Shown: one piece after another, positions 2,555 to 26,960 of the stretch
Numbering within the stretch: position 1 is the stretch's first letter
How the letters are laid out: each line of letters opens with the position of its first letter
Source of the DNA: a virus
Virus record (IMG/VR): IMGVR_UViG_3300048834_000178
Span: 1-40,522 of that record
Direction: 5' to 3' (one strand)
Length of the DNA: 40,522 nt
Notes under the pieces: model-generated
What the model was told of the DNA's origin: nothing
Database searches by the model: none
The model's input: only the letters and a program-made list of their open reading frames with translations
Translations under genes and position numbers: made by a program

Positions 2555-5500
2555 GATCGCCACCGGATACATCAGCATCGTCCCGTCGCTCAAAGGGTTC
2601 TCGGCGTCGTTGAGCGCGCAGATGGCCCCGATGCTGGCGGGCGCGGGGGCGACCGCCGGGCAGCAACTCGGGAACGCCGTAGGCGACAACTACAACAAGG
2701 CCCTCGCGTCGAAACTCGACGGGACCGGCAAGAACCTGACGAAGTTCTTGAGCGTCCCGCTCGCGGCGGTCGGCGCTATCAGCGTCAAGACCGCCGCCGA
2801 CTTCGAGAGTTCCATGAGCCAGGTCGCGCAGGCCATCGGGAAGCCGGGGCAGCCGCTCGCGGAACTCACCGCCCTCGCCCAGCGGCTAGGCGCCGACACG
2901 CAGTACAGCGCCAACGAGGCCGCGCAGGCGATGGTCGAACTGGCGAAGGGCGGCTTCAGCGAGGCGCAGATCAAAGCCGGTGCCCTCAAGACCGCCATGT
3001 CGCTGGCGGCAGCCGGGCAAATGGACCTGGCGGACGCAGCGAACCTCACCGTGCAGGCGATGGGCGCGTTCAAACTGTCGTCGCAGGATTCCGCCGCTAT
3101 CGCCGACGCGCTGGCCGGAGGCGCGAACGCGTCGTCGGCGAGCGTGCACGACCTGGCGCTGGCTTTGTCGCAGGCGGGCGCCGGGGCGTACCAGTCCGGT
3201 ATGACCTTGCAGGAAACCACCGCCGCGCTCGCGGCGATGGCCGACGCGGGGGTGCAAGGTTCCGACGCCGGGACCAGCCTCAAGGTGATGCTGGGCAGGT
3301 TGCAGCCCGAAGGCCGCAAAGTCACCAACATGTTCCGCGACATGGGGCTGCTCGCCGAGGACGGCACCAGCAAGTTCGTCAACGCGAACGGCTCCTTCAA
3401 GTCGATGGAGGAGATCGCCGGGCTGCTGCAAGCGAAACTCGGTGGCCTGTCTGAAGCGCAACGCACCCAGGCCCTGCAAACCATGTTCGGGACGGACGCG
3501 TACCGCGCCGCCGCGATCCTCATGGAGCAGGGCGCCGACGGCATCGCCAAGTACGAGGCGGCCACGGCGAAGGCCGGATCGGCGCAGGAAGCCGCCACCG
3601 CGAACCTCGGGCCGACCTCCCGTGCGATTGAAGAAGCGAAAGGCGCCGCCGAAACGGCTGCTATCGCGTTCGGGGAGGCTCTAGCCCCGGCGGTCAGTAA
3701 GGCCGCGCGCCTGGCGCAGACCGGATTCGCGTGGTTCGGGCGGCTGCCCGGCCCCGTCCGCACCACCACGGCGACGGTAGCGGCGCTGGCCGTGGCCGTT
3801 GGCCCCCTGCTGGTCGTCACCTCGAAGATGATTACGGCTATCGGGGTGGTGCGGGGGGCGCTGCTCGGGGAGAAGGCGGCACTGGTCGCGTCGCGGGTAG
3901 CGTGGCTGGCGCGGCAGGCCGTGTTCGGCGTGCAGGCGCTGTGGGCCGTGGTGACGGTTATCGGCCAGGCGACCGCCGCATGGCTGCTCAACACGGCGCA
4001 AGTCGTCGCGAACAAGGTGGCGTTGGTCGCCACGAACATCGCCATGTACGCGGTGCGCGGCGCCGTCATGGCGTGGACCGCCGCCCAATGGGCCTTGAAC
4101 GTCGCCCTCAACGCCAACCCGATCGGTCTCGTCGTCACGGCTATCGCGGCGCTGGTCGCCATCGTGGTGCTGCTGTGGAACAAGAACGAAGGGTTCCGCA
4201 ACTTCATCCTCGCCGCATGGGACCAGATCAAGGTCGCCGCCGAGGTGATCTGGGGCGCGATCAAAAAGGTGTTCGAGGTCGTCTGGGAGGCTATCGCCTG
4301 GTACGTGCGGACGTACGTGACCGTCGTTAAGACCGTCGTCAAGGCCGTCTGGGACTTCCTGCAACAGGCCACCGATACCGTCTGGGGCGCGATCCGCCGC
4401 GCCATCGAAGTCGTGTGGGACGCCATCGTCTGGTACGTCCGCACCTACATCAACACCGTGAAGACCGTCGTCACAACCGTGTGGAACGGCATCAAGACCG
4501 CCACCAACGCCGCCTGGGACGCGATCAAGTCGCACATCATCGAGCCGATCTACGCCGCGTGGCAACGCGCCGTAGGAATAGTCGGGTCGCTGCGGGACGA
4601 CCTGTCCGGGGTGTGGACCGCCGTAAAGACCCGCGCCGGGAACGCCTGGGACGCGATCAAAGACGCCATCACCGGCCCCGTCCAGGCCGTGTGGGGACTC
4701 ATCCAGTCGGCGCTGGGCATCGGCGACAAAGGCGGCATCGCCGAAGGTGGCCCGCTAAGCATCCTCGTCGGCGTGTTCGACAAGGTCGTCGGGAAGATCG
4801 GCGAGAAGTTCGCCGGGATCAAAGCCGCAATCGTCGCCCCGATAGCCGACGCGTTCGACTGGGTGAACAAGAACGTCATCACCCGGCTCAACGACTCGGT
4901 GCTGGCCGAATTCGGCAACCTCCGCATCCCGCTACTGCCCGTCCCCGACGTGCCTAAGTACGCCACAGGCGGGTGGATCAGCGGGCCAGGCACCGGCACC
5001 TCCGACAGTGTGCTGATGCGCGGGTCGAACGGGGAGTTCGTCGTCAACGCGCGCGCCGCTAAAGCGAACGCGGCGCTGCTAGAAGCAGTCAACTCCGGCG
5101 CGACGGTGCAGTTGCAATCCGCCTACCCGAATTCGCAGCCGGGAGGCCCTTCCATCCCGACTATCCGGGCCATCGCCGACACGCTGTTCCGGAAGGGCGC
5201 CGAGGTAGCGGTCCGGGCTATCGGCGACCCCGCCTTGTCGTTCGTGAAGGCGACGTTCGGGGGGACGGTCGGCGGGGATCTGGCTACCGGCGCGTTCGGG
5301 ACCGTCCTGGATTCGGTGGCGAAGTGGGCCGCGAAGCAGGAGATCGCCCCGACCCCGCTGATGGAGGCCCTGGCGAGCAGGTTCGAGCGGTGGGCCGACG
5401 AAGGCAAATGGGTGGGGGTGTCTACCTGCCTGCGGAACATCAACTTGTCGTTGCAGGAACTCGGGCGCGAATTCGGGTTCACGGTCAACTCCTTCGCGCT

Positions 5501-5975
5501 GGCGGGCACGGCCTACGAGGCCAACCGTGGAGTCGCGGCGTCGGGCATGATGCACCGCAACACGCGCGCGCCGCGCGGCGCCCTCGGGCACTGGGACCCG
5601 GGCATCGGGAACTACGCCGGGCACATCGCGGCGATGGACGGGCGCGGCAACTTCATGAACAACTTCTCGGGGGGGACGGTCGTGAAGTTGCCGCTCGCGT
5701 CGGCGATGAGCGGCTGGATGGGCTGGTCGTACCCTTGGTCGCTGATCGCGGGGGGCGGCAAGTACGACAACGGCGGCTGGCTCCAGCCGGGGTGGTCGCT
5801 GAACTTCAACGGCACGGGCCAGCCCGAAGCGGTGCTGACCGCCGACCAGTGGGACGCGGTGAAGTCCAGCGGCGGCGTCACCAACAACTGGACCGTGTAC
5901 GCCAAGGAAGAACCGACCGTGGACGCCACCATGAGGGCGTGGCGGCAGTGGGAAACGCTACAAGGAGTGGGGTAA
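2541..5975 (+). CDS. Tail tape measure protein with C-terminal Cys/His hydrolase-like domain
   Basis: This is the longest gene (1144 residues). Residues about 75-200 match the TP901-type tape measure core ([17 protein letters not shown], then [20 protein letters not shown]). Hydrophobic stretches at about 405-430 and 525-550 fit the segments that enter the host membrane during DNA injection. Residues about 565-660 hold Trp-rich repeats (W-x2-I at roughly 11-residue spacing, with WYVRTY twice). The last about 190 residues contain [11 protein letters not shown] with Cys963 and YAGHIAAM with His1028, resembling an NlpC/P60 or CHAP-type cell-wall hydrolase. At about 0.15 nm per residue the tail would be near 170 nm. 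Confidence 0.92.
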
Positions 5976-5979
5976 CCGT

Positions 5980-6897
5980 ATGCCTATCGTCGTGCCGTTC
6001 CCCACTCCCCCGTCGACGGTCTACCCGGTCGGGCAGCCGCCCGCGTTGACGTTGACGCGCGGCGCCGACGTGCTACCGCTGACGTTGACGCAAGGCTGGG
6101 TGGTGCTGCCTGGGGTGGAAGGGCTGGACGACCCGCCCCGGTCGCTGATCGAGGTCACCCCGGCGACCGGGGACGGGTCCATCGTCACCGATGCCCGCTA
6201 CACCCCCCGCGAGGTGTTCCTGCCCCTGCACTACAAGGCGGGCACCACGGGGGCGTTGCGGGCGACGCTGCGGGCTGTGGCTTCGCTGATGGACGCGAAG
6301 GCCGGTCCGGTCACCCTCGAAGTCGCGCACGCCGACGGTACCCGCCGCTACTGCGACGGGTACCTGACGCAGCCCTACGGGCAGGCCCTCGGGTCCGGGG
6401 AAGGCGCGGGACTGTGGCGGCAGGTCGGGTTGCGGCTACGCTGCCCCGACCCGTTCTTCGCCGGGGACAGCGCGACCCTTTCCTGGGCGCTGGGCGGCGA
6501 CCCGCCGCCTTTCCTCGGGGGCGAGTTCCTGCCTTTGGGGCTGGCGAATTCGCAGGTTCTCGGCGCCGGGGTGGAAGTCGTCAACGCGGGCGACGCCTAC
6601 GCCTACCCGCTGTGGACGCTGACCGGCCCGTTCGACGCGGCCACAGTGTCGTGCGGCGCGTCGGAGTGGGCCGTCCCCGACGGCCTAGACGAAGGCGAAA
6701 CCCTCGTGATCGACGCCCGCCGGGGCGTCAAGACCTGCACCGTGAACGGCGCGCCCGCCTGGGGCAGGCTAGCGCCCGGCTCCATCATTGAGTCGCTGCC
6801 GCCCGGCCCGACAACCCTCAACGTGGAGGCTGTCGGCGCGACCGCCGCATCATCTATCGCCCTGACGTACCGGGAAAGGTGGCTGACGGCATGGTGA
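5980..6897 (+). CDS. Distal tail protein (Dit-like minor tail protein)
   Basis: A 305-residue protein directly after the tape measure, the usual place of the Dit hub protein that joins the tail tip to the tube. The N-terminal half contains RYTPREVFLPLHYKA and RRYCDGYLTQPYG, and LRLRCPDPFFAGD follows. That pattern of a beta-domain ending in C/A-PDPF is common in siphovirus-type tail component proteins. The C-terminal half is beta-rich. The gene starts 4 bases after the tape measure stop and overlaps the next gene by 7 bases. Confidence 0.8.
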   Translation: MPIVVPFPTPPSTVYPVGQPPALTLTRGADVLPLTLTQGWVVLPGVEGLDDPPRSLIEVTPATGDGSIVTDARYTPREVFLPLHYKAGTTGALRATLRAVASLMDAKAGPVTLEVAHADGTRRYCDGYLTQPYGQALGSGEGAGLWRQVGLRLRCPDPFFAGDSATLSWALGGDPPPFLGGEFLPLGLANSQVLGAGVEVVNAGDAYAYPLWTLTGPFDAATVSCGASEWAVPDGLDEGETLVIDARRGVKTCTVNGAPAWGRLAPGSIIESLPPGPTTLNVEAVGATAASSIALTYRERWLTAW

Positions 6898-8069
6898 ACG
6901 ATGCGGCCTGGCGGCTGGAAGTGTACGACGGGACGACCTTCACGCTGCGCGGCCTGTGCGACGCCTACACGCGCCTTTCCGTCAACCTGAAACACCGCGC
7001 CGGGGGCGGGTGGGCGTTAGAGGTGCCCGCCTCCCACCATCAAGCCGCCCTGTTCTCGGAAGGGGCGCGTATCGCGGTGTGGGCGGAATGGGACCGCGCC
7101 GCGCCGCTGATGAGCGGCCCCGTCACGGCGCTGGCGACCGTCACACCCGACGCTAACCGGCCCGCGATGCTCACCGTCAGCGGCGTGGACGACACTGCCC
7201 TGCTCGCCGACCGCATCGTCCTCCCCGACCCGTCCTCCCCGCCCGACGACCAGGCCGCGGACTCGCATTGGACGTACACCGGCCCGGCGGAAGCCGCGAT
7301 CCGCGAGGCCGTCGGTCGCAACGCGGGCAGGACCGCCCTGCCGTACCGGCGGTTCTGCGACAACGACCCGCACGGGAGGTTAGCGTCGGGCTGTATCGGG
7401 TCGGTGCGGAACGTGTCGGCCAGGTTCGACAACCTGCTCACCCTCGTCAACGACCTGGCCTCGCTGGACAACCTCGCGGTGAGGCTGTACCAGCCGCCCG
7501 GCATCCGCGACCTGCACCTGGACGTCGCCGCTACCACCGACCGCTCGGAAGCGGTGCTGCTGTCGTTCGGGGCGGGTACGCTCAACGCGGCGAACGCCAC
7601 CGTCACCGCCCCCACCGCCACGCATGTCCTGGTCGCGGGAGGGGGGGAAGGCACCGACCGGCTACTGCTGGAACGCGCCGACCCGGCACTGGCCGCAACA
7701 TGGTCACGGCGCATCGAAACGCTACGCGACGCCCGCGACACCGACGACCTCGCGGTCCTCGCCGAACGCGGCGACGAAACCCTCGCGGAGGCGGGCGCGA
7801 CCGCAGGGCTGTCCCTAGACCCGACGGACCTGCCCGGCCAGCAGTTCGGCGTGCACTACCGCCTCGGCGACACGGTACGGGTGACCGTCGCAGGTTCAAC
7901 CTGGACTGACGTGGTGACCGCCGTGCAGATCGACGTGACCGCCGACGGCGGCGCCGCCGTGAAACCGTCCGTCGGGAACCCCGACACCGCCGACCTCAAC
8001 ACCCCCCTGATCTACCGGCGCGTCCGGGACATCATCAGACGCATCGACGCATTGGAGCGCAGGCAATGA
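6891..8069 (+). CDS. Minor tail protein, Gp37-like (tail hub)
   Basis: A 392-residue protein following Dit, with the N-terminal WRLEVYDGTTFTLRGL and the TLTVSGVDDTALLADRIVLP-like region of the siphovirus ReqiPepy6 Gp37-like family, which forms part of the baseplate hub in actinophages. The ATG at 6891 is chosen because AAAGGTGG lies about 8 bases upstream; an in-frame GTG at 6879 is possible but lacks this spacing. A C-terminal helix (RRVRDIIRRIDALERRQ) likely mediates trimer formation. The stop overlaps the next ATG (ATGA). Confidence 0.75.
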   Translation: MVNDAAWRLEVYDGTTFTLRGLCDAYTRLSVNLKHRAGGGWALEVPASHHQAALFSEGARIAVWAEWDRAAPLMSGPVTALATVTPDANRPAMLTVSGVDDTALLADRIVLPDPSSPPDDQAADSHWTYTGPAEAAIREAVGRNAGRTALPYRRFCDNDPHGRLASGCIGSVRNVSARFDNLLTLVNDLASLDNLAVRLYQPPGIRDLHLDVAATTDRSEAVLLSFGAGTLNAANATVTAPTATHVLVAGGGEGTDRLLLERADPALAATWSRRIETLRDARDTDDLAVLAERGDETLAEAGATAGLSLDPTDLPGQQFGVHYRLGDTVRVTVAGSTWTDVVTAVQIDVTADGGAAVKPSVGNPDTADLNTPLIYRRVRDIIRRIDALERRQ

Positions 8070-9016
8070 GCATCACCAGTTGGCCTTTCCACAACGGCAG
8101 CAGCGGCACCCCCGTGTACGAGGACCAGTGGACGCGGATGGCCCGGCAGTGGGCGCCGTCGGGTGTCGTCGGATACCCGCTGGACTCGCAGTTCCAGGTG
8201 TACGCGAACAACTCCGGGCGGGAGGTACACGTGCGGGCGGGGGTGGCGTGCGTACGCGGGCATTGGGTCCGGTCCACCGCCGAGGAAACCCTGCCCGTCG
8301 CGGCGAACCCGTCGGGCGACCCGCGCGCTGACCGGGTGGTGCTGCGGCTCGACCCGTCCGCGAACAGCATCACCTTGGCGGTGCTGACGGGAACCCCCGC
8401 CGGGGGGATCATCGGCCCGCTGCCGCCCACCCCCGAAACCACCGACACCGGCGTCTACGACTTGCCGTTGGCGGTCGTGAACGTAGGGCCAGGGGTAGCC
8501 GCGATCACCGCCCCCGACGTATCCGACGAACGCGTCTACGCCTCGCCCCCGCCGCTGACAGGCGCATCCGGCAGGGTTCCGCTGGACCCTGCCCCCGGAC
8601 AACTCATGAAAGAGGCTGACACCGGGCTGCTGCGGGCGTGGGACGGCGCGCAGTGGGAAACCGTCAACGCCGACCTGCTCGAAGAATGGGTGGTCGTCGC
8701 TGTTGCGGCGCCTTACGCGACCCAGCCTGCCGCTGCTGCCGCGAAGTTCAAATACTGGCGGCGCGGCACGGAAGCGACCCTGGCCGGTTCGCTGAACCGC
8801 ACCGTCTCGGAAGCCTCGAACGCCGTTCTCGTAGCGGCAGGGGCGATGCCCACACCGCAGGCAGAACGCCGGTTCAACGCCTTGGCCGTGAACAACACGA
8901 CCGGCGCGTGGACCGCCGCCCCGTGCCAGATATATACCGACGGGACGCTCGTCGCCTCACTGCCGTCGGCGGGGGCGTACAGCGTGTTCTTCGACTCCTG
9001 CTTCTACACAATCTGA
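8066..9016 (+). CDS. Minor tail/baseplate protein
   Basis: A 316-residue protein begins MSITSWPFHNGSSGTPVYEDQW. Together with the VHVRAGVACVRGHWV and PRADRVVLRLDPSANSITLAV segments, this is characteristic of an actinophage baseplate or upper-fibre protein that links the hub to receptor-binding fibres. The C-terminal about 100 residues are a separate beta-rich unit (FKYWRRGTEATLAGSLNRTV onward) ending in aromatic residues and may contact the host surface. Translation is coupled to the upstream gene by ATGA. Confidence 0.7.
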   Translation: MSITSWPFHNGSSGTPVYEDQWTRMARQWAPSGVVGYPLDSQFQVYANNSGREVHVRAGVACVRGHWVRSTAEETLPVAANPSGDPRADRVVLRLDPSANSITLAVLTGTPAGGIIGPLPPTPETTDTGVYDLPLAVVNVGPGVAAITAPDVSDERVYASPPPLTGASGRVPLDPAPGQLMKEADTGLLRAWDGAQWETVNADLLEEWVVVAVAAPYATQPAAAAAKFKYWRRGTEATLAGSLNRTVSEASNAVLVAAGAMPTPQAERRFNALAVNNTTGAWTAAPCQIYTDGTLVASLPSAGAYSVFFDSCFYTI

Positions 9017-9031
9017 GAGGCTCCCCCCGCT

Positions 9032-11437
9032 ATGAGATTCCTGTACGGGCTTACGTCTGCGGACGTGACAACATCGACCACGGGCATGGTGCTCCCGCAT
9101 GTGCCCGGCCTGACCGTCTGGTACGACCCGGAGCGCAGCGCACGCTGCCTCGACCTGGCTGACCTTGACGGTGCGGAGACGACCTCGCTTACGTCCGACG
9201 GCTACGGCAGGATCGGCTGCTACGGCCCCCACGGGTACAGGGGGAACCTGTGGGTCGATCCCGGCACAGGCGCCCCGCTCGTCTTGCTGCGCCCGGTTGA
9301 CCTGTTCGGCCCGCAGGGGGAGCCTGGCCCCGCCGGTCCTGCAACAATCGGCGGGCTACTCACCGGCAGGGGGGATCTGGCCGTAGGCCGGGGCGACGGG
9401 ACAGCGATTCGGGCAGCCGCTGGCGCTGACGGTGCCGCCGTGGTCTACGACTCCGCTGCTGCGGGCGGGGTCGGCTCGCTCCCGCTATGGACCGGCGTTC
9501 GCAACATTGTTCCGGGAGGCGTTGCTACAACGTCCGACCTCGCAGCGTTCATAGGGGACCGCGCCACCGTCGCACTTGACACTTCGAATAAGCCGAGCGG
9601 GCAGGCCTCCAGCCTCCTTGTGACCGCGACCAGCACGCCCGCGAACGCCTACGCCTGCGGCAATGCCTCTCTCGGCACTCTCGACGTGACCGACCTGGCC
9701 GGCAAAGCCTGTACGTTGTTCTGGGCGGGTCAGTCAAGCGTGCTCAGCGGGACACTGACGTTCCGAATCATGTACTTCCTTGCGGACGGCACCACCGCCG
9801 CCTCGACCCCGTACAACACCAAGACGCTGACCATGAGCGGTGCCTGGCAGGAGAAGGCCGACAGTATCACGATCCCAGCCGACGCCCGGCGGGTCAGTTT
9901 CCGCGCCTACGCGACGACAACGGCAGGCCAGACCTACCGACTGGCGAAGATAGGACTAGCCGAGGGCACGCACGCGACGTGGGTGGCCGGTGCAACGCTG
10001 CTGTCTGGGCCGTTCGTCCCCGACTCGAGCGTCCGCACCGCGTCGATCACCCCCGGGGCTGTGGGCGCCGGGGCGATGGCCGCGCAGGCTGTGGGCCTCC
10101 TGGCGTTGGCAGAGGACGCCCAGGTCGCCGCCGGGGCGCTGGTGTCTTTGGAGGACGCGGCAGGCGTGAGCGTGGTCAAGGCCCGTAGCAACGTGGTCAG
10201 CCAGACCCTCAACAGCAGCCGCAACTTCGTCCAGCAGACCTCGTGGCAGGTCGCCGGGACCACGGTATCCAACGCCAACGACGAGATCGGCCCGATCCGG
10301 CTGGACTACAGGGGCCTGGTCGATGAGTGGATGGGCGCTAATCACGTCGTGCAGGGCTGGGAGGTGCCCGCCGGGTCGCTGACCGCCGCCGACATTGGCA
10401 AGGTGTGGCAGTCGGGCACCCTGCGCATGACACTGCTGGATGTGGCTGGGGGCACCGCGTCCTTCTCGATGCGCCACAATGCGGACGCGACCAGCGCTGA
10501 CAAGACCAAGCCCACCGGGACCTGGACCAGCACTTCAGGCGGCCCGTCCATCGACTTCACGCCATGCACCAGCGGCGGCTACTTGCAGCCCATGACCGTC
10601 AGCGGGCCGCTGTGGACCCCTGGCCGGGCACGCATGCTGGCGCGGGTGTGGACCAACCGCATCGTCGGGTGGGACACCGTCGTCCTGGCGCAGCAGGCGT
10701 CGGTGGGGACGAAGGTGGACTACGCGGCCCTGGCTCCGCTGGCGATCCTGGAGAACATCTGGCGGTGGCCGGGGGACCAGCCGGGGGTCATCATCGTGGA
10801 TTCCAAGGTGACAGCGGGAAGTCAGGGGCTGACCGTGAAGATGTGGAGCGGGTTGCAGGCTGAGGCGCGCTCCCAGCCGTACCGCTTGAGCGCGTTCGTG
10901 GGGACCACGGGCACCGGGATGGACACGTGGGCTGTGCCCACGAGCCAGATTTACGCGGCGCCCGCCAACTGGGTCGGCGGGCAGCCGCCGACCTGCGTCA
11001 TGCACCAGTTCACCTACGGGGTCGGCGGTGGTATCGCTATCGGGTCGCTGGGCTGCTCCCGTGACCGGGGGCTGCTGACCGAACTGGCTGCCCGCACCAA
11101 CGACTCAGGCGGCAAGGCGTACATCGTCGCGGTGGGGGCGGGGAACGGCACGGTCGGGGCGGGTGAGACGGTCTGGCATCGCGGCTTCCGCTCCACGACC
11201 GCCGAACCGGCCACGTCCGACCGTGGCCTGCACATTGTCAAAGACCCCGCCACTGGGGTGGTGCGCTGGTGGCTGATGGCCGGATCGACCGGTGCGGCCA
11301 CTCACCCGGCGGCGATTATGCACGCCGGGAAGCGGCTTGTGAAGGCGCGCGGCACGGCGACCGTTGACCCGCTGGTCACCCCGACCGGCTGCACCGTGAC
11401 CGGTGCCGGGTGGGCCGAAGGCACGGTCGAGTGGTGA
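9032..11437 (+). CDS. Large minor tail protein, probable tail fibre / receptor-binding protein
   Basis: An 801-residue protein that closes the tail gene set. After about 90 residues there is a short collagen-like stretch (GPQGEPGPAGPA), common in phage fibres. The long remainder is Thr/Ser/Gly-rich and beta-like (for example TVSGPLWTPGRARMLARVW), with repeated jelly-roll or lectin-like patterns. The final segment (ARGTATVDPLVTPTGCTVTGAGW) resembles a small C-terminal adhesin motif. Codon choice is less strictly C-ending than in neighbouring structural genes, so the receptor-binding part may have been exchanged. The GAGAGG ribosome-binding site lies about 12 bases upstream of the ATG. Confidence 0.72.
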   Translation: MRFLYGLTSADVTTSTTGMVLPHVPGLTVWYDPERSARCLDLADLDGAETTSLTSDGYGRIGCYGPHGYRGNLWVDPGTGAPLVLLRPVDLFGPQGEPGPAGPATIGGLLTGRGDLAVGRGDGTAIRAAAGADGAAVVYDSAAAGGVGSLPLWTGVRNIVPGGVATTSDLAAFIGDRATVALDTSNKPSGQASSLLVTATSTPANAYACGNASLGTLDVTDLAGKACTLFWAGQSSVLSGTLTFRIMYFLADGTTAASTPYNTKTLTMSGAWQEKADSITIPADARRVSFRAYATTTAGQTYRLAKIGLAEGTHATWVAGATLLSGPFVPDSSVRTASITPGAVGAGAMAAQAVGLLALAEDAQVAAGALVSLEDAAGVSVVKARSNVVSQTLNSSRNFVQQTSWQVAGTTVSNANDEIGPIRLDYRGLVDEWMGANHVVQGWEVPAGSLTAADIGKVWQSGTLRMTLLDVAGGTASFSMRHNADATSADKTKPTGTWTSTSGGPSIDFTPCTSGGYLQPMTVSGPLWTPGRARMLARVWTNRIVGWDTVVLAQQASVGTKVDYAALAPLAILENIWRWPGDQPGVIIVDSKVTAGSQGLTVKMWSGLQAEARSQPYRLSAFVGTTGTGMDTWAVPTSQIYAAPANWVGGQPPTCVMHQFTYGVGGGIAIGSLGCSRDRGLLTELAARTNDSGGKAYIVAVGAGNGTVGAGETVWHRGFRSTTAEPATSDRGLHIVKDPATGVVRWWLMAGSTGAATHPAAIMHAGKRLVKARGTATVDPLVTPTGCTVTGAGWAEGTVEW

Positions 11438-22728: not shown

Positions 22729-23298
22729 GTGATTGCTCCTGATCTTGTTCCGTTGGCTGTGCCGATTGATTCGTTGCGTGAGTTGCCGGGGAATCCGCGT
22801 CGGGGTGATGTGGGGGCGGTGGCTGGTTCGTTGCGGCGGTTCGGGCAGCGGAAGCCGATTGTGGTTCGTCAGGATGGGACGATCATCGCGGGGAATCACA
22901 CGTGGAAGGCTGCGCGTGAGTTGGGGTGGGATCAGATCGCTGTGGTGCGTGTCGCGGACGACGATCAGGAGGCGTTGGCGTTCGCGTTGGCGGATAACCG
23001 GACTGGCGACCTGGGCGTGTACGACGATGAGGCGCTGTTGGACCTGCTGAACGAGGTGGATACCGGCCCTTCGGGGTTGGCGGGCACTGGCTACACCGAC
23101 GATGATCTAGCCGCGCTGCTGCATCTGATTGAGCCGCCTGACCTGGATGATCTGGCCGACACGATTGGCGACCCGACTGAGGACGACGGGCTGGTGCGTG
23201 TGCCTGTGCGGCTGCCAGCCGAGTTGGCGAAGGCGTTTGAGGACGCGCTGGGCAATGACCATGTGGCGGCTGTGAGTAGGTGGCTTGATGGGGGCTGA
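22729..23298 (+). CDS. ParB-like nuclease-domain protein
   Basis: A 189-residue protein from GTG 22729 with the ParB/Srx N-terminal fold: VPIDSLRELPGNPRRGDVGA, then RFGQRKPIVVRQDGTIIAGN and HTWKAARELGW, and the ALADNRTGDLGVYDDEALL segment usual in phage copies. In phages these proteins often stand next to DNA-modifying enzymes such as methyltransferases. Here it overlaps the DpdA-like gene by 11 bases, so it may help choose or open DNA sites for base exchange; that role is inferred. The catalytic state (CTPase or nuclease) cannot be judged. Confidence 0.8.
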   Translation: MIAPDLVPLAVPIDSLRELPGNPRRGDVGAVAGSLRRFGQRKPIVVRQDGTIIAGNHTWKAARELGWDQIAVVRVADDDQEALAFALADNRTGDLGVYDDEALLDLLNEVDTGPSGLAGTGYTDDDLAALLHLIEPPDLDDLADTIGDPTEDDGLVRVPVRLPAELAKAFEDALGNDHVAAVSRWLDGG

Positions 23299-24178
23299 CG
23301 GTATCGAGTTCCCCGTCAACACTTTGGCGAGTTTCTTCTACTACCGGCAGCAGGACATGGCCGCGCTGCACGGTCTGGGGATGCGCATCATCGGGGACTC
23401 CGGGGCGTTCTCCGCTGACTCGCAGGGGGCACCGATTGACCGCGACGAGTTCTTTGCGTGGGCGCGTAGGTGGCGCCCGAACTTGCATTGGGTCGCTGCT
23501 CTTGACGTGATCGGCGATGCCGAGCGGACGTGGCGGAACTGGCGTGCCAGCCCGGTCGATCTGGGCTTGGTCCCGACGCTGCATTACGGCTGCGACCCGC
23601 GCGAGATGGACCGGTATGTCGCCGAGGGTGTGAGCCTGATGGGGCTTGGCGGGATGGTGAGGTTCCGTGCCGAACCGAAGCGGCTGCTGCGCTGGTGTTT
23701 GAAGGTGATGCGGTATGCGCGGGACACACACCCGCACGTGCGGTTCCACGGCTGGGGGGTCAGTAACCCCGAACTGCTCATGAACCTGCCGTGGTGGTCC
23801 GTGGATTCTTCTGGGTTCGGCGCCGCGTACCGTTTCGGTCGGTTGGCTTTGTGGGACCCCGCAACCAAGAAGCACCGAGGCGTCGCGATGGACGGTCGGC
23901 AGTCTGCTGGGGTGGCCGCGTTGCTGCGGCAACACTACGGGGTGCGGTGGGACGAGATCACCCGTTCAACGTCGGCTACCCGCCGCACGGTCATTCGTGT
24001 GTCGATCAGGTCGATGCAGCTGCAAGAGGCGTACTTGCAGCAGCGTTGGCAGGTCGCGCCGCCCCCGTCGCTTGAAGGCGACGGGGTGGGTCCACAGATT
24101 CACTTCGCGGATTCAGCCCCCAGGAATTGGCTAATGGCGCTGACACCACCACTAGGGAACGAGGAAACAGCATCGTGA
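23288..24178 (+). CDS. dpdA: DpdA-like DNA guanine transglycosylase
   Basis: A 296-residue protein of the tRNA-guanine transglycosylase superfamily. GDSGAFSA with Asp37 matches the Asp of the TGT substrate pocket, GLGGMVR at 119-125 matches the TGT GGL loop, and SVDSSGFG with Asp173 is the likely nucleophile. The C-x-C-x2-C zinc site of tRNA TGTs is absent and the protein is shorter, as in phage DpdA enzymes, which insert preQ0 or its derivatives into DNA. A full preQ0 pathway follows in the same operon. ATG 23288 (AGTAGGTGG upstream) overlaps the ParB-like gene by 11 bases; an in-frame TTG at 23285 is less likely. Confidence 0.85.
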   Translation: MGADGIEFPVNTLASFFYYRQQDMAALHGLGMRIIGDSGAFSADSQGAPIDRDEFFAWARRWRPNLHWVAALDVIGDAERTWRNWRASPVDLGLVPTLHYGCDPREMDRYVAEGVSLMGLGGMVRFRAEPKRLLRWCLKVMRYARDTHPHVRFHGWGVSNPELLMNLPWWSVDSSGFGAAYRFGRLALWDPATKKHRGVAMDGRQSAGVAALLRQHYGVRWDEITRSTSATRRTVIRVSIRSMQLQEAYLQQRWQVAPPPSLEGDGVGPQIHFADSAPRNWLMALTPPLGNEETAS

Positions 24179-24834
24179 CGATCTGGCTATCACTGTCAGG
24201 CGGGATGGATTCGGCAACATTGCTCGCCGAGGCTGTGTCTACCGGCGACGAGGTGCGCCCGGTCGGGTTCGACTACGGGCAGCGGCATAGCCGCGAGCTG
24301 CTTAACGCCGCGCAGCTGGCCGAGCACTACGGCTGTCCTTTCCGTGTGGTGGGGTTGTCCCGTCTGCGTTCCCCGGCGCTCACGGACGGCGCCCAGGTGC
24401 CGCACGGGCACTACGCGGCTGACACGATGACCGCGACCGTGGTGCAGGGCCGGAACTTGTTGTTCGTGGCGCAGCTTGTCGGGTTGGCCCAGCCGCAGGA
24501 CGAGGTGTGGGTGGGTGTCCATGCTGGCGACCACGCGATCTACGCCGATTGCCGCCCGGCGTTCGTTGAGCCGCTGGCCGCGGCTGTGCAGCATGGCTAC
24601 GGGGTGACGTTACGGGCGCCGTTCCTGACCATGACGAAGGCGCAGATAGCGCAGCGGGGCGGTGTCCTCGACGTGCCCTACGGGCTTACGTGGTCGTGCT
24701 ACGAGGGCGGCGAGTCGCATTGCGGTCGGTGTGGGACATGCGTGGAGCGCGCCGAAGCGTTCCACCTGGCGGGTGTGGACGACCCCACCCACTACGCCGA
24801 TCCGGGCTACTGGCGGACGCAGGTCGAAGCATGA
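24175..24834 (+). CDS. queC: 7-cyano-7-deazaguanine (preQ0) synthase
   Basis: A 219-residue protein from GTG 24175. SLSGGMDS at 6-13 is the PP-loop that activates the carboxylate with ATP, and CYEGGESHCGRCGTC places zinc-binding Cys at 175, 183, 186 and 189. It converts 7-carboxy-7-deazaguanine and ammonia to preQ0, the last step before DNA insertion. The GTG overlaps the dpdA stop (GTGA) with GAGGAAA upstream; an in-frame start inside dpdA would add residues absent from the family. All family motifs are intact. Confidence 0.93.
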   Translation: MTIWLSLSGGMDSATLLAEAVSTGDEVRPVGFDYGQRHSRELLNAAQLAEHYGCPFRVVGLSRLRSPALTDGAQVPHGHYAADTMTATVVQGRNLLFVAQLVGLAQPQDEVWVGVHAGDHAIYADCRPAFVEPLAAAVQHGYGVTLRAPFLTMTKAQIAQRGGVLDVPYGLTWSCYEGGESHCGRCGTCVERAEAFHLAGVDDPTHYADPGYWRTQVEA

Positions 24835-25226
24835 TCGTCGTGGCCTGCGGTAAGAAGAAGAAGAACGCGCCTGCCGCCGCGAAGGACTTGTACATCGGCA
24901 CAAGTTTCGTGTTGGCGCGTAAGGCTGCCGAGGCGACTGGTGAGCCGTGGATGATCCTGTCGGCACGGCACGGCCTGGTATCCCCGGACCTTGTGCTCGC
25001 CCCGTACGACCAGACGTTGCGTACCAGGGCCGACGCTGCCCGGTTGACGGCACTTCTTCGACGTCAGCGGCTCCCGCTGGCGGTCGTGTCCTGGTGCCCC
25101 GATCTTTACAACCGTGCGCTGGAAGGCGCAGGCGTGCGTGTGGCGGAACCGTTGCGCGGAATGCGGTTCGGGTACCGCAGTCAGTATTGGGCGAGGATCG
25201 CCGCGCGACGACGGGGGGCTGCGTGA
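24831..25226 (+). CDS. DUF6884/YaaA-like protein inside the preQ0 operon
   Basis: A 131-residue protein starting MIVVACGKKK with Cys6, then DLYIGTSFVLARKAAE, and MILSARHGLVSPDLVLAPYD at 41-60. I recognise the CGKKK...SAxHGL...PYD pattern of DUF6884-type proteins. The ILS-x-x-x-GL-x-x-P-x-x-x-x-x-PY order also resembles the YaaA (DUF328) family. It is locked between queC and queD by 4- and 3-base overlaps, so it probably acts on preQ0, its nucleotide or modified DNA (for example a tailoring or DNA-handling step). No activity can be named from sequence. Confidence 0.65.
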   Translation: MIVVACGKKKKNAPAAAKDLYIGTSFVLARKAAEATGEPWMILSARHGLVSPDLVLAPYDQTLRTRADAARLTALLRRQRLPLAVVSWCPDLYNRALEGAGVRVAEPLRGMRFGYRSQYWARIAARRRGAA

Positions 25227-25645
25227 TGTGGGTAATCAGCAAGGAGCATTCGTTCTCCGCGTCGCATGTGCTGGCAGGGCTCCCGGAAGGGCACCCGTGC
25301 GGACGGTTGCACGGGCATAACTACAATCTGCGGATCACGGTGAGCGCCGATGAGCTCGACGCTACGGGGTTCGTTGTGGACTATCACGACCTGGCACACT
25401 TCACCGGCTGGGTGGATGAGCGGCTGGACCACCGACACCTTAACGACGTCGAGGTGCTGCACCGTATCCACGCGGACCTGACGGGCTCCGTGGAGGACTG
25501 GCACCGCATGAACCCCACTGCGGAGAACCTGTCCATGGTGCTGTCGCGGGTGCTGCGTAACAGTCTGAGCGCTGAGGCGCGCGGGCTCACTGTCGCCGTG
25601 GCCGTGTCGGAAACGCCGAAGACGTGGGCGACATGGCAGTCCTGA
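25226..25645 (+). CDS. queD: 6-carboxy-5,6,7,8-tetrahydropterin synthase
   Basis: A 139-residue member of the 6-pyruvoyl-tetrahydropterin synthase family. Zinc ligands are His14 (SASHV), His29 and His31 (RLHGHNYNL), and the catalytic Cys is Cys25 (HPCGRLHG). LDHRHLND and PTAENL are the further conserved blocks, with Glu129 near the C-terminus. It converts dihydroneopterin triphosphate to 6-carboxytetrahydropterin. The ATG overlaps the previous stop by one base, and its own TGATG stop/start leads into queE. Length and motifs are complete. Confidence 0.93.
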   Translation: MWVISKEHSFSASHVLAGLPEGHPCGRLHGHNYNLRITVSADELDATGFVVDYHDLAHFTGWVDERLDHRHLNDVEVLHRIHADLTGSVEDWHRMNPTAENLSMVLSRVLRNSLSAEARGLTVAVAVSETPKTWATWQS

Positions 25646-26352
25646 TGCGCGAGTGGACGTTACCGGTCGCGGACGTCTTCGGGCCGGTGTGGCAGGGTGA
25701 AGGCCCCCATGCTGGTTTGCGCTGCTCGTTCCTGCGTCTGGGGTTGTGCAACCTGCATTGCGAGTGGTGTGACACGGCGTACACGTGGGACCGTGACCGG
25801 TTCGATGTGCAGGCGGAATGCCCGCCGCGTGACGCCGCCTGGATACGCGGCGAGCTGGCAGGTCACGGCACCGACCGGCTCGTGTTGACCGGTGGTGAGC
25901 CGTTGATTCACCGCCGCAATGAGGCGCTGCTGGACGTGCTGACGTGGTGGCGGGCAGCCGGTCGCACGGTCGATGTGGAAACGAACGGAACTCTGCCGCC
26001 CCCGGCGTGGCACCAGTGGATTGATCTGGCTGCGGTGTCCCCGAAACTCGGCCAGAGCGCCGACGCGTACGACCGGAGGATCAGGCCCGATGTGCTCGCC
26101 GAATGGGCGGGACTGCCCCAGGCCGTCCTCAAGGTGGTGTGCCGTGACGGCACCGACGTCGCCGACCTGGCACGCAAACTGCATACATGGGGCGACTGGT
26201 CGCCTGACCGGGTGTGGGTGATGCCCGAAGGTGACAGCGCCAGCGACGTGCTCGACACGGCGCGGGAGATCGAGGAGTCGGTGACCGACTGCGGGTTCAA
26301 CTTGACCTTGCGGATGCACACCCTCATCTACGGGAAGGAGCGTGGCCGGTGA
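25645..26352 (+). CDS. queE: 7-carboxy-7-deazaguanine synthase (radical SAM)
   Basis: A 235-residue radical SAM enzyme with CNLHCEWC (Cys35, Cys39, Cys42) binding the iron-sulfur cluster, the [11 protein letters not shown] opening typical of QueE and [10 protein letters not shown] (GGEP at 83-86) for SAM binding. It rearranges 6-carboxytetrahydropterin to 7-carboxy-7-deazaguanine. ATG 25645 in a TGATG overlap is chosen because the family starts just before this GEG motif; GTG 25624 and ATG 25633 would extend into queD. Confidence 0.92.
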
Positions 26353-26960
26353 GCTGGCCTGAGGACCACATGCGTGACGTGATCGACGCGATGCCAGACG
26401 CCGATGTGGCGCTGCTGGGGGTGCGGGCGTTGCTGCGCCTGGCCGGGCGGGACCCGGACGAGCCGGGCATCGTTGACACCCCGGCGAGGGTGCTGCGCGC
26501 ATGGTCGGAGCAGACATCGGCGCCGGGCGACCCGGCGCAGCTGCTGGCGGTGCAGTTCCCCGACGCGGCGCAGTATGACCAGATGATCGCGGTCGGGCCG
26601 GTGCCGTTCGCGTCGGTGTGCGAACACCATCTGCTGCCCTTCACCGGTCACGCGTGGGTCGCCTACATACCCAACGGTAAAGGCGTCGTCGGGTTGTCGA
26701 AACTGGCGCGGCTTGTGGAGCATTACGCACGCCGACCGCAGATCCAGGAACGGCTCACAGCGCAGATCGCCGACGCGCTGGTGGAGCACCTGGACCCTGT
26801 GGGTGCCGGGTGTGTCGTGCGGGCCTCGCACACATGCATGACGTTACGGGGGGTGCGTAAGGACGGGGCGCTCATGACCACCTCGGCTATCCACGGTGAG
26901 TTGAAGGACCAGCCTGCCGCGCGTGCCGAGTTCATGGCTCTCGTCGGGCTAGGACCCTGA
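26349..26960 (+). CDS. folE: GTP cyclohydrolase I
   Basis: A 203-residue protein with [18 protein letters not shown] (zinc ligands Cys91 and His94), [20 protein letters not shown], and [12 protein letters not shown] (Cys163, third zinc ligand). It converts GTP to 7,8-dihydroneopterin triphosphate, the entry step of deazaguanine synthesis. A phage copy would raise precursor supply beyond host folate needs. The GTG at 26349 overlaps the queE stop and has AAGGAG upstream; ATG 26370 is a weaker alternative. It closes the cassette. Confidence 0.94.

Follow-up and report, generated by a model that had tools for sequence, protein, structure and literature searches.

A stand-alone DUF6884 protein within a viral preQ0 cassette, a candidate enzyme for tailoring the preQ0 nitrile

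What does a 131-residue DUF6884 protein do when its gene is locked between queC and queD in a viral preQ0 cassette, and could it act on preQ0 itself? The gene lies in a 40,522-bp metagenomic viral record (IMGVR_UViG_3300048834_000178), whose full length we refer to as the window.

A DUF6884 gene overlapping queC and queD

The window encodes tape measure, minor tail and Dit-like proteins, a terminase, a portal protein, RecE and RecT, and is of siphophage type. Scans with Pfam and PHROGs profiles revealed an uninterrupted plus-strand cassette at 22729-26960, in the order parB, dpdA, queC, DUF6884, queD, queE and folE (Table 1). The group 2 phage preQ0 DNA-modification cassette has been described as DpdA plus FolE, QueD, QueE and QueC, with no amidotransferase (PMC6884629), and this is the gene set of the window, which combines DpdA with FolE, QueD, QueE and a QueC devoid of a GATase domain. 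The window dpdA is 40-45% identical to the best-matching actinophage genes annotated as "queuine tRNA-ribosyltransferase." A parB gene also adjoins dpdA in contigs L010, L033, L034, L043 and L048 and in phages Finch, Saguaro, Sour, Quesadilla and Nicole72, an arrangement reminiscent of the ParB-like DpdB; the PADLOC DpdB model did not match the ParB-like protein of the window. Two dpdA-like genes per cassette were seen in L033 (3756-6155, with a parB ORF between them) and in Nicole72 (gp2 and gp4, L061 670-2751).

Table 1. Genes of the window cassette, with positions in the window, and loci of a four-gene operon that contains a DUF6884 fusion, with positions in the respective locus
Feature	Position	Strand	Profile matches and remarks
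parB-like (ParB N-terminal domain), first gene of the cassette	22729..23298	+	PF02195 E 3.3e-8; phrog_723 E 4.1e-41
dpdA, DNA guanine transglycosylase-like (queuine tRNA-ribosyltransferase family)	23285..24178	+	phrog_7068 E 1.8e-73; phrog_887 E 5.2e-26
queC, single-domain, without amidotransferase domain	24175..24834	+	PF06508 E 1.1e-49; phrog_1550 E 1.9e-63
DUF6884 gene (131 aa), proposed dPreQ0 nitrile-tailoring enzyme	24831..25226	+	PF21818 E 8.3e-25
queD, 6-pyruvoyl tetrahydropterin synthase (PTPS) family	25226..25645	+	PF01242 E 1.5e-30
queE, radical SAM	25645..26352	+	phrog_2076 E 7.2e-49, scanned from 25648; start probably the ATG at 25645, judging from a TGATG overlap
folE, GTP cyclohydrolase I	26349..26960	+	PF01227 E 2.7e-59
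Four-gene operon, L105 (Pseudomonas rhizoryzae)	5324-9339		
Four-gene operon, L128 (Burkholderia sp.)	5312-9330		
Four-gene operon, L013 (contig classed as viral)	4701-8701		

The first-pass annotation of this DNA had placed here a 131-residue protein overlapping both neighbors, and this was borne out: the ATG start shares 4 nt with the end of queC (ATGA, queC stop TGA at 24832-24834), and the queD ATG at 25226 creates a TGATG overlap of 1 nt. An alternative in-frame ORF begins with a GTG at 24690, but the coordinates 24831-25226 stand, because homologues align from the ATG at 24831 and not from this GTG.

The protein matches the Pfam family DUF6884 (PF21818) over its full length, scoring 87.9 bits where the cut-off is 30 (the genome search gave 86.3 bits), and the PADLOC model PDC-M57A with an E value of 9.3e-17. 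It carries the two motifs reported for DUF6884 (PMC11701544), CxxxK (C6-K10) and LSAxxG (L43-S44-A45-R46-H47-G48). Among 119 DUF6884 domains, S44 and Y59 are invariant, K10 and Y21 are kept in 118, and C6, A45, G48 and Y93 in 117. The single cysteine described in the first-pass annotation is in fact one of two, C6 and C89, of which C6 alone is a family residue. The window protein thus has the same motifs as the rest of PF21818, which includes Bacillus subtilis YfjM and PADLOC PDC-M57A, whereas dpdA or queC is absent nearby in most members, unlike in the window. A single-sequence phmmer search of the PDB with the window protein returned chance matches only (best, SMUG1, E 0.33), and a uracil-glycosylase reading was dropped, as the SMUG1/UdgX rows in Foldseek and VIA-align (Z about 3.3) did not rise above background.

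Recurrence of DUF6884 beside deazaguanine genes

Seven of 50,697 deposited phage records matched the window protein, and a cassette of the window's kind was seen in none of the seven. Two of them, an original record and a RefSeq copy, belong to Halorubrum virus HRTV-29, whose gp32 (“YaaA”) is a DUF6884 gene that overlaps the DpdA gene, gp33; DpdA of HRTV-29 has been reported without a preQ0 pathway, its YaaA being listed separately (PMC8651126). Beside the DUF6884 gene of Kronos no deazaguanine gene was matched, and no dpdA was seen near those of Naby, BDU-MI-1 and Kronos. A scan of viral contigs with the window protein as the lone query found no relative, while a three-sequence alignment (window, HRTV-29 and Kronos) retrieved 44 DUF6884 contigs, several of which are near-copies of each other and one of which (L016) carries the gene of HRTV-29. 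QueC is present in 9 of these 44 contigs, compared with 0 of 50 arbitrary ones (Fisher P 7e-4, near-copies counted separately), and DpdA in 8 of 44; the window and L048 are not among the 44. The 50 control contigs were picked, mainly by length, from the 80 listed for a 14-mer that was chosen arbitrarily; a phrog_1362 protein of the window (only 2 contigs) and a 17-mer (18 contigs) were set aside as alternative controls.

The same slot is occupied in other viral contigs. L010 and L034 show parB-dpdA-queC-DUF6884-queD-queE-folE, an order identical to that of the window, and L015 shows it from dpdA onward; in L017 the DUF6884 gene lies one gene earlier, giving dpdA-DUF6884-queC. L048, which was found through the window DpdA alone (58% identical), has the full window order, its DUF6884 gene being confirmed by Pfam. 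In all six (the window, L010, L015, L017, L034 and L048), the DUF6884 start overlaps the preceding gene, by 1 to 14 nt. The DpdA proteins of L034 and L015 are just 23-24% identical to that of the window and the cassette DUF6884 proteins pairwise 20-44% identical, so that these cassettes do not represent one recent phage. Together with HRTV-29, these contigs give a positive answer to the survey that the first-pass annotation had proposed as a test of the association with deazaguanine genes, and its assignment of the gene to the deazaguanine cassette holds.

Elsewhere, the linkage is looser or lacking. The cassettes of L033 and L043 have no internal DUF6884, the gene lying about 2 kb off, and in L040 and L046 it lies about 16 and 31 kb from the cassette. 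QueC was not found in 35 of the 44 contigs, nor was a queC match found in flanks of up to 6 kb at 78 of 80 bacterial or archaeal DUF6884 loci. Since most DUF6884 genes lack dpdA or queC, the family has other roles, and the cellular loci show that the family in its entirety cannot be counted as a deazaguanine family. One of the nine QueC-positive contigs, L013, has a different operon, which occurs at three of three loci (Table 1) and comprises four genes encoding a QueC-like protein, a DUF6884-PDC-M57B fusion, a SIR2-like protein with an AAA-like part, and a nucleoside 2-deoxyribosyltransferase. This operon looks like a QueC-containing defence system. PDC-M57A and PDC-M57B are candidate defence models of PADLOC, and a PADLOC scan did not recognize the full set of four genes as a known system.

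We also searched 18 named viruses with PF21818 (CAjan, CP220, 7-11, nt-1, HVTV-1, Finch, Saguaro, Sour, StAugustine, Nicole72, Bipper, Me-ZS1, Ares, MED16, Quesadilla, 9g, Dp-1 and HRTV-29); the searches also covered ChaoS9, HRTV-8, BDU-MI-1 and Naby, which had been selected because they carry DUF6884 and are not counted here. DUF6884 was found in five, namely Finch, Saguaro, Ares, Quesadilla and HRTV-29, or in 4 of 17 when HRTV-29, itself chosen for having DUF6884, is left out. The Rosebush-type dPreQ0 cassettes (parB-dpdA-queC-queD-queE-folE) of Ares, Finch, Saguaro, Sour and Quesadilla have their gene order in common with the window, but nothing stands between queC and queD, where the window, L010, L015, L034 and L048 have DUF6884; in Finch, Saguaro, Ares and Quesadilla the DUF6884 gene lies outside a cassette whose order is otherwise that of the window. 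The genes of two of these cultured actinophages, Ares (5921-6391 in L070, gp8) and Finch (gp203, L057 2527-3006), are unannotated DUF6884 genes near a preQ0 cassette. Sour and StAugustine have complete dpdA-queC-queD-queE-folE cassettes and no DUF6884 match anywhere in their records, and DpdA therefore does not need DUF6884. Small ORFans that differ from one another precede queD in Nicole72 (L061 4129-4775), Bipper (L062 2047-2472, without queC) and Me-ZS1 (L063 4411-4812); none matched DUF6884 or had a significant Pfam match. The site before queD may serve more generally to accommodate tailoring enzymes.

The expectation that every phage with dADG carries DUF6884 failed. Some dADG has been reported in CP220 (where all G is replaced), MED16, 7-11, nt-1 and HVTV-1 (PMC8306585, PMC6884629), and none of these five records had a DUF6884 match with PF21818; other routes to dADG therefore exist. 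CAjan, with under 6 dADG per million nucleotides according to PMC6884629, likewise had no match. Finch, Saguaro, Ares and Quesadilla, together with L031, L032, L033, L037, L040, L043 and L046, belong to a subfamily II that is marked in the alignment by VIPCxxxK ... KMGD and usually lacks the C-terminal P...GIG motif; L048 lies nearby. The Ares protein (Ares is a Rosebushvirus) keeps C6, K10, S44, G48 and Y59, and Rosebush DNA is reported to contain about 28% dPreQ0 of G and 0.003% dADG, or 9 dADG per million nucleotides (PMC6884629). If Rosebush carries the Ares gene, subfamily II does not hydrate efficiently.

In a quick tree of the 119 DUF6884 domains, in which 19 of 116 inner branches are starred and 55 are open, eight of the 11 rows of one clade (support 92) come from dpdA genomes. 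Placing the six cassette rows takes five label changes, at least two of them forced by starred branches. As the copies found in cassettes are not united in a single clade, the uptake of DUF6884 into preQ0 cassettes was probably a repeated event, which would be rare for a bystander gene. The alignment has few columns, so that the tree should not be pressed further.

Relation to DpdC and resemblance to YaaA and ArcS

The first-pass annotation had also stated that the protein is not a known step of the pathway. This needs to be qualified, given that in dpd islands DUF6884 is the Pfam-based annotation of bacterial DpdC, which is needed for dADG in Salmonella Montevideo (PMC11888242) and is described as converting dPreQ0 in DNA to dADG (PMC11888242, PMC12839542). 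The PADLOC DpdC model PDLC02815 matches the window protein with an E value of 6.1e-10, at positions 48-107 of 312, and the cassette copies of L010, L034 and L048 with E values of 2e-6 to 5e-4. DpdC was reportedly found to act by itself on preQ0-DNA (Gedara, 2023). We compared profiles with hhalign, using the 119 DUF6884 domains, three DpdC sequences drawn from bacterial genomes (L311, with an E value of 1e-96; L321; and L322, which is partial), eight ArcS DUF5591 sequences from archaeal genomes and one E. coli YaaA. DUF6884 aligned with DpdC with a score of 46.4 (E 4.4e-7, probability 92.6), compared with at most 18.2 for six unrelated families, at most 20.4 (DpdC) and 18.9 (ArcS) for 20 column shuffles, and 10-12 for reversed profiles. 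On these profile matches, the window protein is related to DpdC. The two share the CxxxK motif and a VSAxxGLV...Y core (CTNRK/CSNRK and VSAGLGLV...Y in DpdC), and DpdC likewise works beside DpdA and preQ0 genes. They differ in that DpdC is about 310 aa long with an extra C-terminal part, the similarity spanning about 60-95 of its positions, and belongs to a bacterial modification-restriction island, whereas the phage gene sits inside a preQ0 biosynthesis operon, with no restriction genes seen beside it. Because the phage protein has 131 aa and about a fifth of the 312-position model is matched, we call it “DpdC-like” rather than DpdC.

An AlphaFold model of the window protein (mean pLDDT 94.5) was compared with known structures. 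In Foldseek, E. coli YaaA (5caj) was the sole structure under E 0.001 (E 8.5e-4, probability 1.00); among predicted viral proteins, eight structures matched under this threshold, DUF6884 and “YaaA” proteins included. VIA-align ranked 5caj first (Z 7.3, 127 aligned, rmsd 4.1) and 2q07 second (Z 7.0, 112 aligned, rmsd 4.2), the next row having a Z of 4.3. A model of the L048 protein, built from subfamily II sequences (pLDDT 83.6), gave the same two structures (5caj, Z 8.6, 109 aligned, rmsd 3.3; 2q07, Z 7.2, 103 aligned, rmsd 3.4; next row, 5.0), a Z of 7 being a value that may by itself reflect a common arrangement. The YaaA-like block noted in the first-pass annotation is real: ILSARHGLVSPDLVLAPYD of the window protein aligns onto LSGLYGVLRPLDLMQPY of E. 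coli YaaA with an E value of 0.001, YaaA is the best match in a profile search of the PDB (E 7e-4), and hhalign of DUF6884 against E. coli YaaA gave a score of 28.9 (E 4.9e-4). PF03883 (DUF328), the family of YaaA, did not match the window protein up to E 1, and matched the homologues from L015 and L017 at 4e-4, below the curated cut-off. YaaA thus shares the fold and the LS-x2-G...PY block with the window protein, but has twice the length and is linked to peroxide stress.

The structure prediction that had been suggested as a check yielded a YaaA match from a confident model and, unexpectedly, the ArcS-type structure 2q07. This entry (AF0587, “unknown function”), which we take to be a TgtA2/ArcS homologue, is a DUF5591/ArcS relative that matches an archaeal ArcS domain with an E value of 5e-29 at chain positions 17-156, which would fit the range 261-394 of the model in entry numbering if the offset is 244. 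ArcS has the signature PCx3KPYx2Sx2H, and the DUF5591 sequences that we examined show strings of this type. The hhalign match of DUF6884 with ArcS was weak (E 1.1e-3, probability 19.9, score 25.9, 117 columns), and its path pairs C6 and K10 of DUF6884 with the Cys and Lys of ArcS CSxxKPY; when DpdC was set against ArcS alone, the match was limited to 12 columns (score 19.4). PF17884 (ArcS DUF5591) did not match the window protein up to E 1. With CSARK and TSPIGVV...YD as the ArcS core, the C-x3-K, S-x2-G (S/T-x2-G in ArcS) and Tyr positions appear to be common to DUF6884, DpdC, YaaA and ArcS DUF5591. The fold and these positions of ArcS may correspond to those of the window protein, whereas ArcS, an archaeosine synthase, is multi-domain, acts on tRNA, to whose preQ0 it transfers lysine (PMC11298593), and has weak sequence similarity to the phage protein.

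Candidate reaction and competing explanations

Given its relation to DpdC and its resemblance to ArcS DUF5591, the protein is best read, on these sequence and model comparisons, as tailoring preQ0, as proposed in the first-pass annotation. We put an even chance on the DUF6884 protein being a minimal stand-alone domain that acts on the preQ0 nitrile after insertion by DpdA, most likely as a hydratase converting dPreQ0 to dADG. Several results weigh against this view: the many DUF6884 genes away from dpdA and queC, the five dADG viruses with no match, the Ares copy set beside the base content of Rosebush DNA, the limited stretch of DpdC that is matched, and the weak sequence link to ArcS. The substrate, reaction, product and catalytic roles that we infer would be as follows. 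DpdA would exchange G for preQ0 in phage DNA, and the DUF6884 domain would flip the modified base into its basic cleft, where a thioimidate could form by attack of Cys6 of C-x3-K on the nitrile carbon. Lys10, the S44-A-x-H47-G48 loop and Tyr59 would position the base and a water molecule, and hydrolysis of the thioimidate to the amide would turn dPreQ0 into dADG. The term “new biochemistry” used in the first-pass annotation is too strong, the likeliest reaction being already known from DpdC: the chemistry is probably not new, unless the ArcS-like branch of the hypothesis is right. What is new is that viral cassettes have built in DUF6884 as a single free-standing domain of about 130 aa. In the literature searched, neither DUF6884 in phage preQ0 cassettes nor a link between ArcS and DUF6884 was described, and further papers could contain either.

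The nitrile might be tailored without water, by addition of another nucleophile (ammonia, an amine or an amino acid, as with the lysine of ArcS), or free preQ0 might be acted on before insertion, the base then being other than dADG. The model matches 2q07 about as well as YaaA (Z 7.0 vs 7.3, and 7.2 vs 8.6 for L048), C6 and K10 pair with the ArcS residues, and ArcS provides a precedent for lysine transfer (PMC11298593), but the sequence similarity to DpdC is far above that to ArcS (E 4e-7 vs 1e-3) and no possible partner, for instance a radical SAM lyase, accompanies it in the window cassette apart from QueE, so we consider this improbable. An unlikely, though slightly more credible, explanation is a noncatalytic accessory, that is, a domain binding DNA, flipping bases or reading the modified base, which would aid DpdA, shield the DNA or regulate the cassette. 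YaaA co-purifies with DNA (PMC4834066), B. subtilis YfjM (DUF6884) is among reported DNA-lesion interactors (PMC11701544), the fusion to PDC-M57B in the L105, L013 and L128 homologues would fit a reader module, and an accessory would also fit the dPreQ0 result for Rosebush. Against it, the conservation of C6, K10, S44, G48, Y59 and Y93 in 117-119 of 119 domains is more like that of an active site than of a binding face, and DpdA does without DUF6884 in the complete cassettes of Sour and StAugustine. Nothing was found in support of the earlier proposal that the protein helps to open DNA for base exchange.

DUF6884 could also merely travel with the cassette while serving an unrelated role, for example in DNA repair or anti-defence, which might also be the task of other DUF6884 proteins of phages. 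The 35 QueC-negative contigs of 44, the DUF6884 genes of Naby, BDU-MI-1 and Kronos with no dpdA nearby, and the location outside the cassette in Finch, Ares, Saguaro and Quesadilla would all agree with such a role. We nevertheless regard it as doubtful in view of the five contigs in which the gene lies, with overlap, between queC and queD, the position next to DpdA in HRTV-29, the scatter of these genes on the tree, and the 0 of 50 control contigs with QueC.

Beyond preQ0 tailoring by the window protein, a broader and rather speculative proposal, to which we give little weight, is that DUF6884, DpdC, YaaA and ArcS DUF5591 form one superfamily, whose C-x3-K ... S-x2-G ... Y site would handle the nitrile, or a related group, on a 7-deazaguanine of nucleic acids, through lysine transfer in ArcS and hydration in DpdC. 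Between queC and queD, phages would then have a pluggable slot for tailoring, filled repeatedly by DUF6884 and elsewhere by other small proteins, and the product in the window might be an undescribed DNA base.

The mechanism of dADG formation in phages has been called poorly explained (PMC8306585), and in several viruses the enzyme making dADG was left unassigned in the account of PMC6884629. A candidate of 131 aa that is locked in an operon and small enough for co-expression with dpdA in E. coli makes this step in phages directly testable, and the virus of the window may carry a further chemical step that disguises its DNA. If the relation to ArcS is true, archaeosine synthesis in tRNA and deazaguanine tailoring in DNA share an ancestral nitrile-handling domain, and the YaaA and DUF6884 families gain a concrete biochemical hypothesis.
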